A DNA stretch of 64,000 nt from Microbacteriaceae bacterium MWH-Ta3 (GTDB lineage: Bacteria > Actinomycetota > Actinomycetes > Actinomycetales > Microbacteriaceae), in contig QBKD01000001.1 in assembly GCA_003053925.1 (NCBI GenBank), positions 1,426,001 to 1,490,000 on the forward strand. The letters run 5' to 3'. The position numbers and the translations under genes were made by a program. The notes under the pieces are model-generated. The model had not been told where the DNA came from and did not search any database. It saw only the letters and a program-made list of their open reading frames with translations. Positions 1,826-9,376 of the stretch are shown here, piece by piece (the stretch's first letter is position 1; every line of letters begins with the position of its first letter).

Positions 1826-3028
1826 ATGGAATCTGGAAACTTGACGTGGGCGGTTGTGGCCACAGCACTTGTGCTGTTCATGACGCCAGGCGTCGCATTC
1901 TTCTACGGTGGCCTCGTGAAGGCCAAGAGCGTTATCTCGATGATGATGATGAGCTTCGGCGCAATCGGACTCATCGGAGTCCTCTGGATTCTCGTGGGCT
2001 TCAACATGTCGGCGGTTAGCGATGTGTGGCAATTCGCGGGTGATCCGTTCAGTAACTTCGGCCTTGCCGCCGCAGACAACGAGACTCTGATTGGAGCTGC
2101 ATACGGCGCAACCTTTGCGATTATTACCGTTGCCCTGATCTCGGGTGCCATTGTTGACCGTGCGCGTTTCGGGGCCTGGATGGTCTTTGTTGCGATCTTT
2201 GGTGTCTTCGTGTACTTCCCCGTCGCAGCATGGGTATGGGGCGGCGGCTGGATCATGGGCCTTGGTGAAACGCTGGGACTGCCCGGTGTTATTGACTACG
2301 CCGGTGGAACCGCGGTACACATCAACGCAGGTGCCGCTGCTCTGGCGCTGGCTTTGGTATTGGGTAAGCGCGTGAAGTTCGCAAAGGGCACTCACCAGCC
2401 ACACAACGTACCCCTGATGCTCATTGGTGTCGCGATCCTGTGGTTCGGCTGGTTCGGTTTCAACGCTGGCGCTGAATTCCTCGGCGACATGGGTGGTGTC
2501 GGTCTGATCACGATTAACACGCTGGGCGCAACTGCCGCCGGTATCCTCGGCTGGATGCTCGTCGAAAAGATCAAGGACGGCAAGGCAACGAGCGTTGGCG
2601 CAGGTTCTGGTGCCGTCACGGGTCTGGTAGCTATTACTCCTGCATGTGCCAACCTCACACCCGGCTGGGCGCTGGTTTTGGGACTCATTGCGGGTGCCAT
2701 CAGCGCACTGGCAATTGAACTGAAGTTCAAGCTGGGCTTTGACGACTCGCTCGATGTTGTGGGAATTCACCTCGTCGCTGGTTTCATCGGAACGGTGTAC
2801 CTGGGCTTCTTCGCAACCGACACCGGACTGTTCACGGGTGGCGACACGGGTCAGCTCGTCGTGCAGCTCATCGCCTCGGTGGGCGTCATGATCTACTCGT
2901 TCGTTGTGTCCTTGATTGTCGGATACGCCATCGAAAAGACCATCGGCTTCCGCTTGAAGCCCGAGGACGAGATGGCCGGTATCGATACCGTCGTGCACGG
3001 TGAAGTCGGATACGCCATCAACGACTAG
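1826..3028 (+). CDS. amtB: Ammonium transporter AmtB, first copy
   Basis: Amt/Mep/Rh family integral membrane channel for ammonium uptake, 400 residues with about 11 hydrophobic segments and no separate signal peptide. Visible family features are FFYGGL near residue 25, the conserved Asp157 in VIDYAG, the first twin-His His165 in AVHINAG and the second twin-His His316 in VVGIHLVAG. The ATG at 1826 follows AAAGGGAA. It is followed by two hairpins and then by a second amt gene whose protein is very similar by eye. No glnK (PII) gene is attached, although amtB-glnK-glnD is the common actinobacterial order. The 153 bases upstream (1673-1825) hold no gene and no operator that I can name. Confidence 0.95.
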   Translation: MESGNLTWAVVATALVLFMTPGVAFFYGGLVKAKSVISMMMMSFGAIGLIGVLWILVGFNMSAVSDVWQFAGDPFSNFGLAAADNETLIGAAYGATFAIITVALISGAIVDRARFGAWMVFVAIFGVFVYFPVAAWVWGGGWIMGLGETLGLPGVIDYAGGTAVHINAGAAALALALVLGKRVKFAKGTHQPHNVPLMLIGVAILWFGWFGFNAGAEFLGDMGGVGLITINTLGATAAGILGWMLVEKIKDGKATSVGAGSGAVTGLVAITPACANLTPGWALVLGLIAGAISALAIELKFKLGFDDSLDVVGIHLVAGFIGTVYLGFFATDTGLFTGGDTGQLVVQLIASVGVMIYSFVVSLIVGYAIEKTIGFRLKPEDEMAGIDTVVHGEVGYAIND

Positions 3029-3031
3029 AAC

Positions 3032-3068
3032 TTCGTGGGGGCACATTCGGGTGGATGTGCCCCACGAA
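3032..3068 (+). terminator. hairpin after the first amtB
   Basis: Arms at 3032-3046 and 3055-3068 pair over 14 bp with one bulged G and an 8-base loop, three bases after the amtB stop. There is no T tract, so it may be an mRNA-stabilising hairpin or a non-canonical terminator. Confidence 0.5.
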
Positions 3069-3091
3069 CCTCTCACATCACTATCTGCAAC

Positions 3092-3116
3092 ACGTGCGTA
3101 ACGTACGCACGTTTTT
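3092..3116 (+). terminator. intrinsic terminator between the two amtB genes
   Basis: A perfect 9-bp stem (3092-3100 with 3104-3112), a 3-base loop and a run of five T at 3112-3116 make a canonical intrinsic terminator. It implies that the second amtB has its own promoter. Confidence 0.8.
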
Positions 3117-3203
3117 GTAATATCCCCGAAACATTGGGGGAGCCTCCCTGTAATCCTTGTGCCGCACCATGGTGACACCACCACACAGCGACAGGGGACA
3201 TCA

Positions 3204-4409
3204 ATGGATACTGGGCACATGGTCTGGGCCGTGATGGCAACGGCACTCGTACTCTTCATGACACCGGGACTCGCGTTTTTCTATGGAGGCCTCGTGAAGG
3301 CCAAGAGCGTTATCTCCATGATGATGATGAGCATCGGTTCTATCGGGCTCATCGGCGTTCTGTGGATCCTTTTCGGCGACAGCATGAGTCGAGTCGCTAA
3401 CCCGGGTGATTTCGCCGGTAACCCGTTCGGAGATTTTGCCCTCGTAGCGGCAGACAACGAGCGACTTCTGCAGTCCGCCTTCGCCGCCTCGTTTGCGATT
3501 ATCACTGTTGCGCTTATTTCGGGCGCAATCGCTGACCGAGCGAAATTCGGCGCATGGATGGTCTTTGCAGGGCTTTACGCCGTACTCGTGTACTTCCCGG
3601 TGTCGGCGTGGGTGTGGGGCGGTGGCTGGATTCAGCACCTCGGCGAATCGCTCGGACTTCCCGACGTGATTGATTACGCGGGCGGACTCGTCGTCGAAAT
3701 CAATTCGGGTGCAGCCGCGTTGGCGCTGGCTCTAGTCTTGGGCAAGCGTGTCAATTTCGGTAAGGGCGTCCACCAACCTCACAACGTGCCGCTGACTCTG
3801 ATTGGGTTTGGAATTCTCTGGTTCGGTTGGTTCGGGTTTAACGCGGGCGCGGCAGCGTTCGGGGACATGTCGACAATCGGCGTCATCTTCATGAACACCT
3901 TTGCGTCAAGCGCCGCCGGTATTTTGGGATGGATTGTCATCGAGAAGTTCAAGGACGGTAAGGCCACCAGCGTTGGCGCAGCGAGTGGCGCGGTGGCGGG
4001 ATTGGTGGCCATTACTCCGTCGTGCGCGAATTTGACGCCGGGCTGGTCATTGCTCTTGGGTGCGATCGCAGGAATCATCTCGGCCTACGCCATCGAGTTG
4101 AAGTTCAAGCTGGGCTTCGACGACTCGTTGGATGTTGTGGGATTGCACCTCGTAGCCGGCCTTGTCGGAACGCTCTATCTGGGGTTCTTCGCAACCGGCA
4201 CAGGGCTCTTCACGGGTGGCGATCTGGGTCAATTGGCAGTGCAGTTGATTGCGGCCTTAGCCGTGCTCGTGTACTCGTTCTTTGCCGCGCTCATCATCGG
4301 CTTCACGGTCGACAAGTTCATCGGTTTCCGGATTCACTCGGATGATGAGCTTGCCGGAATCGACACCGTGGTTCACGGCGAGCTGGGATACGCGCTCGAA
4401 GCCGACTAA
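3204..4409 (+). CDS. amtB: Ammonium transporter AmtB paralogue with Glu at the first twin-His site
   Basis: Second Amt family channel, 401 residues and collinear with the first copy. ATG 3204 (MDTGHMVWAV) follows ACAGGGGACA and matches the N-terminus of the neighbour; an upstream in-frame start at 3159 lacks this match. Asp157 and the second twin-His His316 are present, but the first twin-His is replaced by Glu165 (codon GAA at 3696-3698, context LVVEINSG). The same His-to-Glu exchange is known in fungal Mep1/Mep3 transporters, where it changes transport properties. The two copies probably arose by tandem duplication and may have specialised for different pH or ammonium conditions; that part is inference. 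Confidence 0.94.
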   Translation: MDTGHMVWAVMATALVLFMTPGLAFFYGGLVKAKSVISMMMMSIGSIGLIGVLWILFGDSMSRVANPGDFAGNPFGDFALVAADNERLLQSAFAASFAIITVALISGAIADRAKFGAWMVFAGLYAVLVYFPVSAWVWGGGWIQHLGESLGLPDVIDYAGGLVVEINSGAAALALALVLGKRVNFGKGVHQPHNVPLTLIGFGILWFGWFGFNAGAAAFGDMSTIGVIFMNTFASSAAGILGWIVIEKFKDGKATSVGAASGAVAGLVAITPSCANLTPGWSLLLGAIAGIISAYAIELKFKLGFDDSLDVVGLHLVAGLVGTLYLGFFATGTGLFTGGDLGQLAVQLIAALAVLVYSFFAALIIGFTVDKFIGFRIHSDDELAGIDTVVHGELGYALEAD

Positions 4410-4932: not shown

Positions 4933-5004
4933 GGGCGATTGGCGCAGCGGTAGCGCGCTTCCCTGACACGGAAGAGGTCACTGGTTCGATCCCAGTATCG
5001 CCCA
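4933..5004 (+). tRNA. tRNA-Val (anticodon GAC), with encoded CCA
   Basis: A 72-nt cloverleaf with acceptor arms GGGCGAT/ATCGCCC, anticodon stem CTTCC/GGAAG and loop CTGACAC giving GAC. The discriminator A at 5004 is followed by CCA at 5005-5007, unlike the four other tRNA genes in the window. The 3' part of this gene, from T4982 through the CCA, is the first 26 bases of a 79-nt unit that then repeats in tandem. Confidence 0.97.
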
Positions 5005-5228
5005 CCAACTTTTACACGGAAGACCGAGCCTGTGGCTCGTCTCACCACGGTGTGGTTCGCTGGTTCGATCCCAGTATCGCCCACCAACTTTTACACGGAA
5101 GACCGAGCCTGTGGCTCGGCTCACCACGGTGTGGTTCGCTGGTTCGATCCCAGTATCGCCCACCAACTTTTACACGGAAGACCGAGCCGGTGGCTCGGCT
5201 CACCACGGTGTGGTTCGCTGGTTCGATC
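4982..5228 (+). repeat. tandem array of 79-nt units derived from the 3' end of tRNA-Val(GAC)
   Basis: Three complete units (4982-5060, 5061-5139, 5140-5218) and a 10-base start of a fourth (5219-5228). By eye they differ at two positions: T5040 is G in units 2 and 3, and the T in the first hairpin loop becomes G in unit 3. Each unit has the tRNA T arm, 3' acceptor strand and CCA (26 nt), then 53 nt holding ACACGGAAGA (also in the tRNA anticodon arm, 4966-4975), a hairpin CCGAGCC/GGCTCGG (one pair shorter in unit 1) and a small hairpin ACCAC-GGT-GTGGT. No 5' tRNA half is repeated, so the extra copies cannot fold as full tRNAs. The period is not a multiple of three, which argues against a coding role. 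The function is unknown. Confidence 0.93.
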
Positions 5229-5314: not shown

Positions 5315-7297
5315 GTGTCGGAACCCATTTCACTCAGCCAGCCCAACACGGGGTTCGAGCTGTTCACCGACCGTACCGTTGTCGCCATGCGCGTCAACGG
5401 CGAGCTACGTGACCTTGCGCACCAGGCACAAGCAGGCGACACGGTCGAGGCCGTAACAATCGGTTCCGACGACGGCCTGGCCATTTTGCGCCACTCCGCG
5501 GCCCACGTGCTGGCGCAGGCTGTGCAGCGCATCAACCCCGAGGCCAAGCTCGGCATTGGCCCGCCCGTGACGGACGGCTTCTATTACGACTTCGATGTCG
5601 ACACCGCGTTTACCCCCGAAAACATGACCGCGCTCGATAAGGAAATGAGCCGCATCATTCGTGAGGGCCAGCGTTTCATGCGCCGTGTTGTCAGCGAAGA
5701 CGAGGCTCGTGCGGAACTGGCGCACGAACCGTACAAGCTCGAGCTCATCGGCTTGAAGGGCGGCAGCACCGGGGACGACAACGAGAGTGTCGAGGTGGGT
5801 GGTGCCGAACTCACCATCTACGACAACGTTGATCCCAAGACGGGCGAGACGGTCTGGAAGGACCTGTGTCGCGGACCGCACCTTCCCAACACTCGCATGA
5901 TCGGCGAGGGCGTCAAGCTCATGCGCCTTGCGGCCGCCTACTGGCGTGGTTCCGAGAAGAACAAGCAGCTACAGCGCATCTACGGCACGGCATGGCCATC
6001 GAAGCAGGAACTGCGCGACTACACCGAACGCCTGGAGGAGGCCGCCAAGCGCGACCACCGTCGTTTGGGTGCCGAACTTGACCTGTTTTCATTCCCCGAT
6101 GAAATTGGTTCCGGGCTGGCCGTTTTCCATCCCAAGGGCGGTGTGATCCGCAAGACGATGGAAGATTATTCGCGCAAGCGTCACGAAGAGGCCGGATACG
6201 ACTTTGTCTATTCGCCGCACATCACCAAGCAGAACCTGTTTGAACAGAGTGGACACTTGGCGTGGTACAAGGACGGAATGTTCCCGCCCATGCACCTCGA
6301 CGAAATCCGTAACGAGGCGGGCGAGGTCACGCGCGCCGGTGTCGATTACTACCTCAAGCCGATGAACTGCCCGTTCCACATTCTGATTTTCCGTTCACAG
6401 GGTCGGTCGTATCGCGACTTGCCTCTGCGACTTTTCGAATTCGGCTCCGTGTACCGATACGAGAAGAGCGGTGTGGTGCATGGCCTCACCCGCGTTCGTG
6501 GCATGACCCAGGACGACGCACACATTTTCACCACGGTCGAATCCATGGAGGATGAACTCAAGGGCGTCATCGACTTCGTTCTCGGTTTGCTACGCGACTA
6601 TGGTTTGACGGATTTCTACCTCGAGTTGTCGACCCGCGACGCAACGAAGGAAAAGTTTGTCGGAGACGATGAGCTGTGGGAGACGGCCACAGCAACGTTG
6701 GAGCGTGTCGCGACCGAGACAGGCCTCACCCTGGTTCCAGACCCTGGTGGAGCCGCGTTCTATGGGCCAAAGATTTCTGTCCAGGCACGCGATGCAATCG
6801 GTCGAACCTGGCAGATGTCCACTATTCAACTTGATTTCAACCTGCCCGAACGTTTTGACCTGGAGTACACGGCCAACGACGGTTCGCGGAAGCGTCCCGT
6901 CATGATTCACCGCGCCCTGTTTGGGTCGATCGAGCGGTTCTTCGGCGTACTCATCGAACACTATGCAGGTGCCTTCCCTGTGTGGCTGGCACCAGTACAG
7001 GTGGTCGGAATTCCCGTTGCCGAGGAGTACGCCGATTACCTGCACGGAATCATCACCGAGCTAAAGTCGCGTGGTGTTCGTGCGCAACTTGACGTGTCCG
7101 ATGATCGCATGCAGAAGAAGATTCGCAACCACACCATGGCGAAAGTTCCATATCAGCTGATTGCGGGTGAGGACGATCGTGCAAATGGCGCGGTGTCCTT
7201 CCGATTCCGAAACGGCGAACAAATCAACGGCGTACCTGTTGCTGATGCAATCGACCGAATTCTGTCGCACATCGAAACTCGTTCCGTGGACCTCTAA
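5315..7297 (+). CDS. thrS: Threonine--tRNA ligase
   Basis: Class II aminoacyl-tRNA synthetase that charges tRNA-Thr, 660 residues. Domain order: a TGS-like N-terminus (about 1-60), an editing domain with HSAAHVLAQ, a catalytic core with NCPFH (zinc ligand Cys), motif 2 around GSVYRYE and [14 protein letters not shown] and MIHRALFGS (zinc ligand His residues), then an anticodon-binding domain. The GTG start at 5315 is set by GCAGGAGGA at 5301-5309. The stop overlaps the ATG of the HIT gene by one base (TAATG), so the two are translationally coupled. The thrS-HIT pair is conserved in actinobacteria. Confidence 0.97.
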
Positions 7298-7845
7298 TGC
7301 CCGACTCGCGGTTCGAAACTTCGGAAGGGCATCCGGGAACGCCCGATGGCTTTCAGCGACTATGGACGCCTCACCGCATGGTCTATCTGGCACAAGAGAC
7401 GGGACATGTTGGTTGTCCCTTCTGTACCGCGCCGGAGGGAAGCGATGAGGACGGTCTCATCGTGTTTCGGGGGACCGTGTCCTATGTTCTGCTGAATCTG
7501 TATCCCTACAATTCCGGTCACGTGTTGGTGTGCCCCTACCGCCACGTTGCGACCTACGATCAAGCAACGGCGGAGGAAGTTGCGGAAATCGGCGAACTGA
7601 CACAGATTGCGATGCGCGTCCTGCGTGACGTGAGCGGCTGTGTGGGATTCAACCTGGGAATGAACCAAGGAGAGGTCGCAGGTGCAGGCATCGAGGAGCA
7701 CTTGCATCAGCACATCGTTCCTCGTTGGCGTAACGACGCAAATTTCTTTCCGATTATTGCCCAAACCAAGGCAATTCCGCGTTTGTTGGGTGAGGTGCGG
7801 GAGCAGCTCGCGCAGGCGTGGCCCACGACAACTACACTTGAATAA
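7297..7845 (+). CDS. HIT-domain protein, probable Ap4A phosphorylase
   Basis: Histidine-triad nucleotide hydrolase/transferase of 182 residues. It has a metal-site-like CPFC at the front and the triad EEHLHQHIVPRW near residues 132-143. Its place behind thrS matches M. tuberculosis Rv2613c, which phosphorolyses diadenosine tetraphosphate; that specific activity is inferred from synteny. The ATG overlaps the thrS stop by one base. In many actinobacteria pgsA and PIM-synthesis genes follow; here pdxS follows after 36 bases. Confidence 0.85.
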   Translation: MPDSRFETSEGHPGTPDGFQRLWTPHRMVYLAQETGHVGCPFCTAPEGSDEDGLIVFRGTVSYVLLNLYPYNSGHVLVCPYRHVATYDQATAEEVAEIGELTQIAMRVLRDVSGCVGFNLGMNQGEVAGAGIEEHLHQHIVPRWRNDANFFPIIAQTKAIPRLLGEVREQLAQAWPTTTTLE

Positions 7846-7881
7846 CCCCCTCGGGATAACCCTCTACTAGGAGTGATACAC

Positions 7882-8772
7882 ATGGCGGAAAACACCGTCG
7901 GAACCGCGCGAGTGAAGCGCGGACTTGCCGAAATGCTCAAGGGCGGCGTCATCATGGACGTCGTGACTGCCGACCAGGCAAAGATTGCGGAAGACGCGGG
8001 CGCTGTTGCCGTTATGGCACTCGAGCGTGTTCCCGCGGACATCCGCGCTCAGGGTGGTGTCGCTCGTATGAGTGATCCCGATCTGATCGATGAAATCATT
8101 GCGTCGGTCTCGATTCCCGTCATGGCCAAGGCGCGTATTGGTCACTTCGTCGAGGCACAGATTCTTCAGACGCTTGGCGTTGACTACATCGACGAGTCCG
8201 AGGTGCTGTCGCCGGCAGACTACGTCAACCACATTGACAAGTTCCCCTTCACGGTGCCGTTTGTGTGTGGCGCAACGAACCTGGGCGAGGCCCTTCGTCG
8301 TATCACCGAAGGTGCCGCCATGATTCGCTCCAAGGGTGAAGCAGGCACGGGCGATGTGTCCGAGGCAACGAAGCACATTCGCACCATTCTGGGCGAAGTT
8401 CGTGCGCTGTCGGCTAAGACCGACGACGAACTTTACGTCGCCGCCAAGGAACTGCAGGCACCGTACGACCTGGTCGTTGAGGTTGCACGTACCGGCAAGC
8501 TTCCCGTCGTGCTGTTCACCGCAGGTGGTGTGGCCACTCCCGCGGATGCTGCGCTGATGATGCAGTTGGGTGCGGATGGCGTATTCGTCGGCTCGGGTAT
8601 TTTCAAGTCGGGTAACCCCGCAGCTCGTGCGGCGGCAATTGTCAAGGCAACCACCTTCTATACCGATCCCGCGGTTGTGGCAGAGGCATCGCGTGGACTG
8701 GGCGAGGCCATGGTCGGCATCAACGTGTCTGACCTGCCAGCCCCTCACCGCCTGTCCGAGCGTGGCTGGTAA
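7882..8772 (+). CDS. pdxS: Pyridoxal 5'-phosphate synthase subunit PdxS
   Basis: Synthase subunit of the DXP-independent vitamin B6 pathway. It joins ribose 5-phosphate, glyceraldehyde 3-phosphate and ammonia from PdxT to make PLP. The (beta/alpha)8 protein has 296 residues, with conserved [35 protein letters not shown] and VGSGIF segments. ATG 7882 ([11 protein letters not shown]) was chosen because AGGAG at 7869-7873 is 8 bases upstream; GTG at 7873 lies inside that site. The 3' end overlaps pdxT by 11 bases. Confidence 0.97.
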
Positions 8773-9376
8773 TCAGACGCCTCTGATTGGCGTGCTCGCC
8801 CTTCAGGGCGATGTGCGCGAGCACGACGAGACTCTGCGTGCGTTGGGGTACGACACAGTCCTGGTGCGTACCCCAGCGGACGTTTCTCGTGTGGACGCCT
8901 TAGTCATCCCGGGCGGAGAGTCCAGCGTCATCGACAAGCTCTCGCGCATTTTTGGGGTGCGCGAGCCGATTGTGTCCCGCATTCAGGGCGGCATGCCGGT
9001 TCTGGGAACGTGCGCGGGCCTGATTATGTTGGCACACACAATCTCGGGCGGCATTCATGACCAACAAACATTCGGTGGTCTCGATATCACCGTCGCGCGA
9101 AACGCCTTTGGCTCCCAGGCGGAATCGTTCGAGGCGGACCTCATCGTCGATGGTGTGGCCGCAGAACCCATTCACGTGGCCTTCATTCGCGGTCCCGTCA
9201 TCACCGATGTAGGACGTGGCGTCGAGGTCATTTCGACGTTGCCGTCTGGCCAAATAGTCGGTGTACGACAGGGTGCCCTCGTCGGTGTGTCATTCCACCC
9301 CGAGGTTGTCGGTGAGACCCGTCTTCACCGCTGGTTCGTCGAGTCGCTTGTGCGCGACGCGATGGCCAATCGATAG
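8762..9376 (+). CDS. pdxT: Pyridoxal 5'-phosphate synthase glutaminase subunit PdxT
   Basis: Class I glutamine amidotransferase that supplies ammonia to PdxS. The protein begins [17 protein letters not shown] from GTG 8762, inside the end of pdxS, and has 204 residues; the longer open frame to 8570 only shadows pdxS. The catalytic Cys is in LGTCAGLIM and the His-Glu pair in SFHPEVV. Its TAG stop is also the first half of a TAGAAT hexamer that is a candidate promoter for yebC. Confidence 0.94.

Follow-up and report, generated by a model that had tools for sequence, protein, structure and literature searches.

Short hairpin units recur in tandem behind tRNA-Val(GAC) in Microbacteriaceae and look more like a DNA feature than an RNA

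Short hairpin repeats behind the gene of tRNA-Val(GAC) recur in several per cent of the sampled Microbacteriaceae genomes, and the array behind this tRNA in the window (the whole stretch of 64,000 nucleotides of Microbacteriaceae bacterium MWH-Ta3 that was analysed) is probably a diverged member of this family. The units look more like a recombination or replication feature of DNA at a known integration site than like an RNA; the mechanism proposed for them is inferred. Bacterial islands integrate at tRNA genes more often than at any other hot spot, and where a genome has an array of partial tRNA copies, the usual explanation is that islands have decayed or accreted there. The family described here is gene-free, palindromic and conserved in structure, is tied to one tRNA gene over many genera and has its boundary at the core of an integrase site. 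Should the hairpin turn out to be a substrate of recombination, this folded DNA site would be distinct from those of integrons and dif, and the expansion and contraction of tRNA-linked repeats could be followed in a natural setting.

The array of the window

The array has a period of 79 bp and 3.1 copies (TRF: 98% matches, 0 indels, score 482, span 4981-5228; Table 1). A sequence-only reading had described a tandem array of this period between tRNA-Val(GAC) and thrS, with the real tRNA's own 3' end as first unit and with differences at just two positions, and all of this holds: three full units are followed by a partial one, the first unit starts with the T arm of the tRNA found by ARAGORN and continues with acceptor 3' strand and CCA, and by script the only variable offsets are 5031 T/5110 T/5189 G and 5040 T/5119 G/5198 G. 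Because each unit opens with an intact tRNA 3' end, the tRNA is left undamaged. The window genome (1.56 Mb) has 44 tRNAs; among those checked by scanning their neighbourhoods, tRNA-Val(GAC) alone is followed by further copies of its 3' end.

Table 1. Features of the tRNA-Val(GAC) locus in the window
Feature	Position	Strand	Basis
tRNA-Val(GAC) gene	4933-5007	+	ARAGORN; Rfam tRNA 69.2 bits
Repeat unit 1: CTGGTTCGATCCCAGTATCGCCCACCA (tRNA 3' end) and 52-nt linker with palindromes	4981-5059	+	TRF, script
Candidate diverged inverted T-arm motif CCGAGCCTGTGGCTCGT, unit 1 (compare CGAACCAGTGACCTCG of relatives)	5024-5040	+	Alignment; similarity alone not significant
Candidate inverted T-arm motif, further copies in units 2 and 3	5103-5119, 5182-5198	+	Script
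Stem-loop ACCAC-GGT-GTGGT, unit 1, just 5' of next CTGG	5044-5056	+	Folding, script
Stem-loop ACCAC-GGT-GTGGT, further copies in units 2 and 3	5123-5135, 5202-5214	+	Script
Repeat unit 2; one difference to unit 1, at 5119	5060-5138	+	TRF, script
Repeat unit 3; one further difference, at 5189	5139-5217	+	TRF, script
Terminal partial unit of 11 bases, CTGGTTCGATC; array stops inside T loop	5218-5228	+	Script
thrS (threonyl-tRNA synthetase), 3' neighbour of the array	5315-7297	+	ORF list

The same reading had also seen a match to the anticodon arm in each unit. The sequence ACACGGAAGA is indeed present at 4966, 5014, 5093 and 5172, but the linker as a copy of the arm is not significant: in local alignments of the window linker with the 5' part of the tRNA, 10-16% of shuffles were equally good. 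It is therefore unsafe to label the linker a copy of the anticodon arm, and ACACGGAAGA was dropped as a sign of a repeated tRNA half.

The two hairpins of the window fold modestly better than shuffled sequences (z between -0.4 and -2.5). The inverted motif agrees with CGAACCAGYGACC at 12 of 16 positions, with one position a gap, and is equalled by 7-9% of shuffles (p about 0.07-0.09).

Occurrence of the arrays

Searching for two T-arm copies at a distance of 44-74 bases, we found matches in 8 of 400 genomes of the family and none with the reversed control pattern; three of the eight (G309, G208 and G035) have a single unit. At a cutoff of E<=0.01 a covariance model matched 39 of 300 genomes of the family; for about 16 of them the match has E<1e-5 and lies beside tRNA-Val. 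At the level of the order there were four weak matches among 347 genomes, which we read as chance. A scan of GTDB contigs returned, among others, Ruicaihuangia caeni and MAGs of Microbacterium, Aurantimicrobium and Cryobacterium (Ruicaihuangia and Aurantimicrobium belong to the Microbacteriaceae), together with false matches that were real tandem tRNAs; an exact scan of these contigs gave no match to the window's own hairpin.

The arrays are not the fixed element, annotated throughout the family, that the sequence-only reading had considered as a counter-case: they are present sporadically and differ in sequence and in number of copies. Genome G010 has an array of similar kind and different sequence behind the same tRNA-Val, in which at least four units can be seen, with a gap, while in two further genomes of its genus, G001 and G006, a plain terminator follows the tRNA. 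Phage and plasmid records contained no DNA similar to the units, and viral contigs gave no match to the array pattern and one to the hairpin pattern (L110), which lies inside a phage-like structural gene and is read as chance; a phage or plasmid origin was rejected on these grounds. A literature search for tandem tRNA 3'-end repeats and for attC at tRNA genes, made mostly outside subscription journals, returned nothing matching, and the family is apparently undescribed so far.

Several further sites were observed. In Nocardioides (L048, L053, L057, L060, L062, L063, L065, L067, L070, L073, L074) a different tandem type lies behind tRNA-Val: identity of the partial tRNA copies resumes at the anticodon loop (CACCGAAG) and several copies are preceded by a perfect D-arm palindrome, features for which we set them aside as not belonging to the family. 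At L215 (G408, about 7300-8960), two complete tRNA-Val genes are 1.36 kb apart, each with one hairpin unit behind it, and the 264-aa ORF between them is RNase H-like by eye. At L116 (G246, 8160-9323, minus strand), the hairpin is separated from tRNA-Val by a unit of 1163 bp; this unit has repeats surrounding GTGCGAAGTAGGCC, a second terminator and a small ORF that resembles a membrane protein. A tRNA-Ala-like tRNA at L109 (G060, 1500-1547) has its 3' end repeated once behind it, beside a GC-rich hairpin, which may be an instance of what is seen at tRNA-Val. The partial tRNA-Val copy at L200 (G066, around 1450-1530) starts from CCCTGACACGG, is followed by the motif CAGTGACC and resembles an attR whose crossover point is the anticodon loop.

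Shared unit plan and covarying stems

Units of the relatives, with intervals of 69-145 bp, have a common order. The T-arm 3' half with CTGGTTCGATCC... leads into the acceptor 3' strand, in many units with CCA; next come a linker or the host's own terminator, a full or partial inverted copy of GAGGTCACTGGTTCGATCC (the variable/T-arm segment of the tRNA) and a stem-loop, after which the next T arm opens with CTGG. In the relatives this palindromic element directly follows either the tRNA 3' end or the terminator, and the stretch between CTGG, at the base of the T stem, and the end of the palindrome is present in one to several repeats. At least ten genomes have the hairpin past an intrinsic terminator that is part of the unit: G178, G266, G116, G235, G240, G193, G151, G136, G289 and G407.

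In the hairpin model of the relatives 92.6% of cells are paired, six pairs are changed on both sides and the covariation score was reached by 0 of 500 shuffles. Alignment of the short and long hairpin classes gave 33, 20 and 17 cells changed on both sides, with 0 of 2000 shuffles as high. In these sets the arms were placed by manual alignment, and since rows from the same array or genus share ancestry, the shuffle counts make them look more independent than they are. Among the about 320 cells of these hand-aligned sets, 2 are G-U and 5 are A-C, with no strand preference. An unpaired TGACCT is conserved in hairpins across genera, and in the long hairpins a second bulge on the 3' side, mostly ending in GA, also recurs across genera.

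The window array has in common with this family the tRNA-Val(GAC) locus, the CTGG boundary, a period in the range of about 70-80 bp and a hairpin before CTGG. A folded imperfect palindrome, with variable sequence on a conserved structure, was found in the relatives, whereas folding and motif of the window are not convincing, and the R1 covariance model has no match in the window genome (G000) at E<=0.01. Two relatives of the window genome, G010 and G208, carry the inverted motif. As this motif is weak in the window itself, family membership is argued from position, boundary, period and close relatives.

DNA site or RNA

Strong covariation of the stems, the near absence of G-U pairs, the unpaired TGACCT and the position often past the terminator favour a folded or palindromic site at the DNA level over an RNA mimic. 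Two of the explanations offered by the sequence-only reading lose ground accordingly: amplification from a CCA-bearing RNA copy fits poorly with units of many relatives that include the tRNA terminator and DNA past it, and functional mimics of the tRNA 3' half are disfavoured both by this extension and by covarying stems with almost no G-U. A functional RNA in the wider sense, with the units as mimics of the tRNA 3' half that are cotranscribed with it or as terminator hairpins that follow tRNA-Val, we consider very improbable. Terminator-free genomes, including that of the window, would cotranscribe the array with the tRNA, and the hairpins of relatives are stable (mean z -3.1), but in many relatives the hairpin stands past an intrinsic terminator, the stems are almost free of G-U pairs, the downstream gene varies among genera and no Rfam family reaches the gathering score: at this score only tRNAs were found in the window and in five loci of relatives, and even at E<1 the matches other than tRNA were weak and unrelated. 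thrS is not constant beside the arrays; a thrS leader or T-box-like control was rejected because other genera have other downstream genes.

Probable in situ origin of the units

The copies of the unit probably arose in situ and were not imported, because their tRNA ends and terminators match those of the host and because the arrays stop at or near the end of the hairpin. Acceptor variants in the units track the host tRNA (CGCGCAC in G193, G136 and G407, CACCCAC in G289), and unit terminators resemble those of the host lineage, as seen in two genomes of one genus, G193 and G028. In G083, G269, G235, G178 and G193 the array stops at the hairpin or inside it, and in G000, G010 and G208 just after CTGGTTCGATC.

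Our preferred reading, to which we give slightly less than an even chance, is that the window array is one case of recurrent short tandem units based on a palindrome that acts at the DNA level and is duplicated in situ. The palindromic element would have stood behind the tRNA first; the stretch from CTGG to its end would then have been duplicated in situ, and copy number would later have been altered by recombination between near-identical units. With less certainty, the palindrome may act as DNA, folded as a single strand or as a cruciform, next to the T-arm core, which serves tyrosine integrases as attB; in this way recombination or replication may restart time and again at the CTGG boundary. 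On this reading the array of the window is a diverged version without terminator.

Quasi-palindrome correction via template switching could, however, keep the stems Watson-Crick without selection; such correction of imperfect palindromes is established in E. coli (PMC7202029). A neutral remnant is another reading: replication template switching at the inverted repeat of the tRNA would have created palindrome and tandem copies, free of function, and unequal exchange and palindrome correction would sustain the array. It agrees with the in situ origin of the copies, with their sporadic presence, with the degenerate copies seen in G309, G151 and G243 and with the correction known from E. coli (PMC7202029). 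We still think it unlikely, as correction should erase bulges, yet TGACCT and the 3'-side bulge ending in GA persist across genera, and as occurrence is concentrated on one tRNA gene.

Link to integration at the tRNA

In G023 (L115, 521-13821), an interval of 13.3 kb with a tyrosine integrase lies between tRNA-Val(GAC) and a second CTGGTTCGATCCCAGTATCGCCCAC and is an ordinary integrative element in this tRNA gene. Its attR begins at the same CTGG base as the repeat units and its left end also has tRNA 3' end and terminator; a hairpin is absent. Like integrative elements, the units are flanked on either side by direct repeats of the tRNA 3' end, and no integrase is found inside the repeated intervals (69-145 bp in relatives, 79 bp in the window). 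Repeated integration or excision at a tRNA attachment site, the first-named proposal of the sequence-only reading, has indirect support in the boundary, which coincides with the attR start of G023, but not in the units, which have no integrase and whose tRNA ends and terminators match the host's.

In a PF00589 census no recombinase tracked the arrays: the array genome G010 has two such genes, like the array-free G001 and G008, and none of the PF00589 genes of G000 is adjacent to the array. We rejected a dedicated integrase as required cause because PF00589 counts within the genus are similar with and without an array. What ties arrays to integration would thus seem to be a common site rather than an identified enzyme. 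At L185 (G000, 2654-4087 and 5994-7526), a third tyrosine recombinase ORF lies near a type I restriction methylase-like ORF and distant from the array.

The units could also be, or have been, mobile cassettes of an integron-like or CTX-like kind, with the hairpin folded as single strand and recombined into the tRNA T arm by a tyrosine recombinase supplied in trans. In favour of this reading, units have the polarity of integron cassettes, in which a core is followed by the body, the folded site and the next core; their inverted and direct half-sites can pair around a bulge, like the two inverted attP sites of CTXphi (PMC5357621); and the unpaired and conserved TGACCT, the small ORF on the unit of about 1.16 kb in G246 and the unit boundary at the integrase attR boundary also speak for it. 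Array genomes have no dedicated recombinase, however, the tRNA end and terminator of the units follow the host, and neither viral contigs (no array match, one chance match to the hairpin pattern) nor phage and plasmid records (no similar DNA) provide a source, so that such cassettes seem an unlikely account. Quite unlikely, too, is an uncharacterised folded single-strand recombination site that builds cassette-like micro-arrays, with the T arm as attI, the bulged hairpin as attC and a non-integron recombinase supplied in trans.

Comparison with known systems

Integron attC arrays keep structure above sequence, their repeats within one genome are near-identical and their consensus boxes are GTTRRRY and RYYYAAC. 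The arrays described here are alike in polarity, in structure conserved over sequence and in near-identical repeats per genome; they differ in the absence of an integron integrase from the PF00589 census, in the absence of gene cassettes save for one case of 1.16 kb and in the box of the units, GTTCGAT, which departs from the attC consensus GTTRRRY.

Elements that use a tRNA as attB, such as that of G023 (L115), share with the arrays the same tRNA-Val(GAC), a 25-bp core from CTGG and a left end with tRNA 3' end and terminator. The units, in contrast, lack an integrase and have an inverted half-site and a hairpin that are absent from the attR of G023.

CTX arrays occur tandemly at one chromosomal site. 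In CTXphi, an IMEX, two inverted attP sites anneal into a bulged folded site (PMC5357621). The units likewise have two inverted att-like segments able to anneal with a bulge and stand in tandem at one site, but this site is, by inspection, the T arm of a tRNA and not dif, on which XerC/XerD act, there is no phage genome and the fold is a predicted one.

In the tandem tmRNA (ssrA) islands of Dehalococcoides, serial partial copies of the 3' end follow an intact tRNA-like gene, the insertion site is in the T loop and a conserved motif lies beside each direct repeat (PMC3146451). The arrays resemble these islands in their series of partial 3'-end copies behind an intact gene; whereas the ssrA intervals are gene-bearing islands, some with a serine recombinase, the intervals here are of 69-145 bp, gene-free, near-identical and palindromic.
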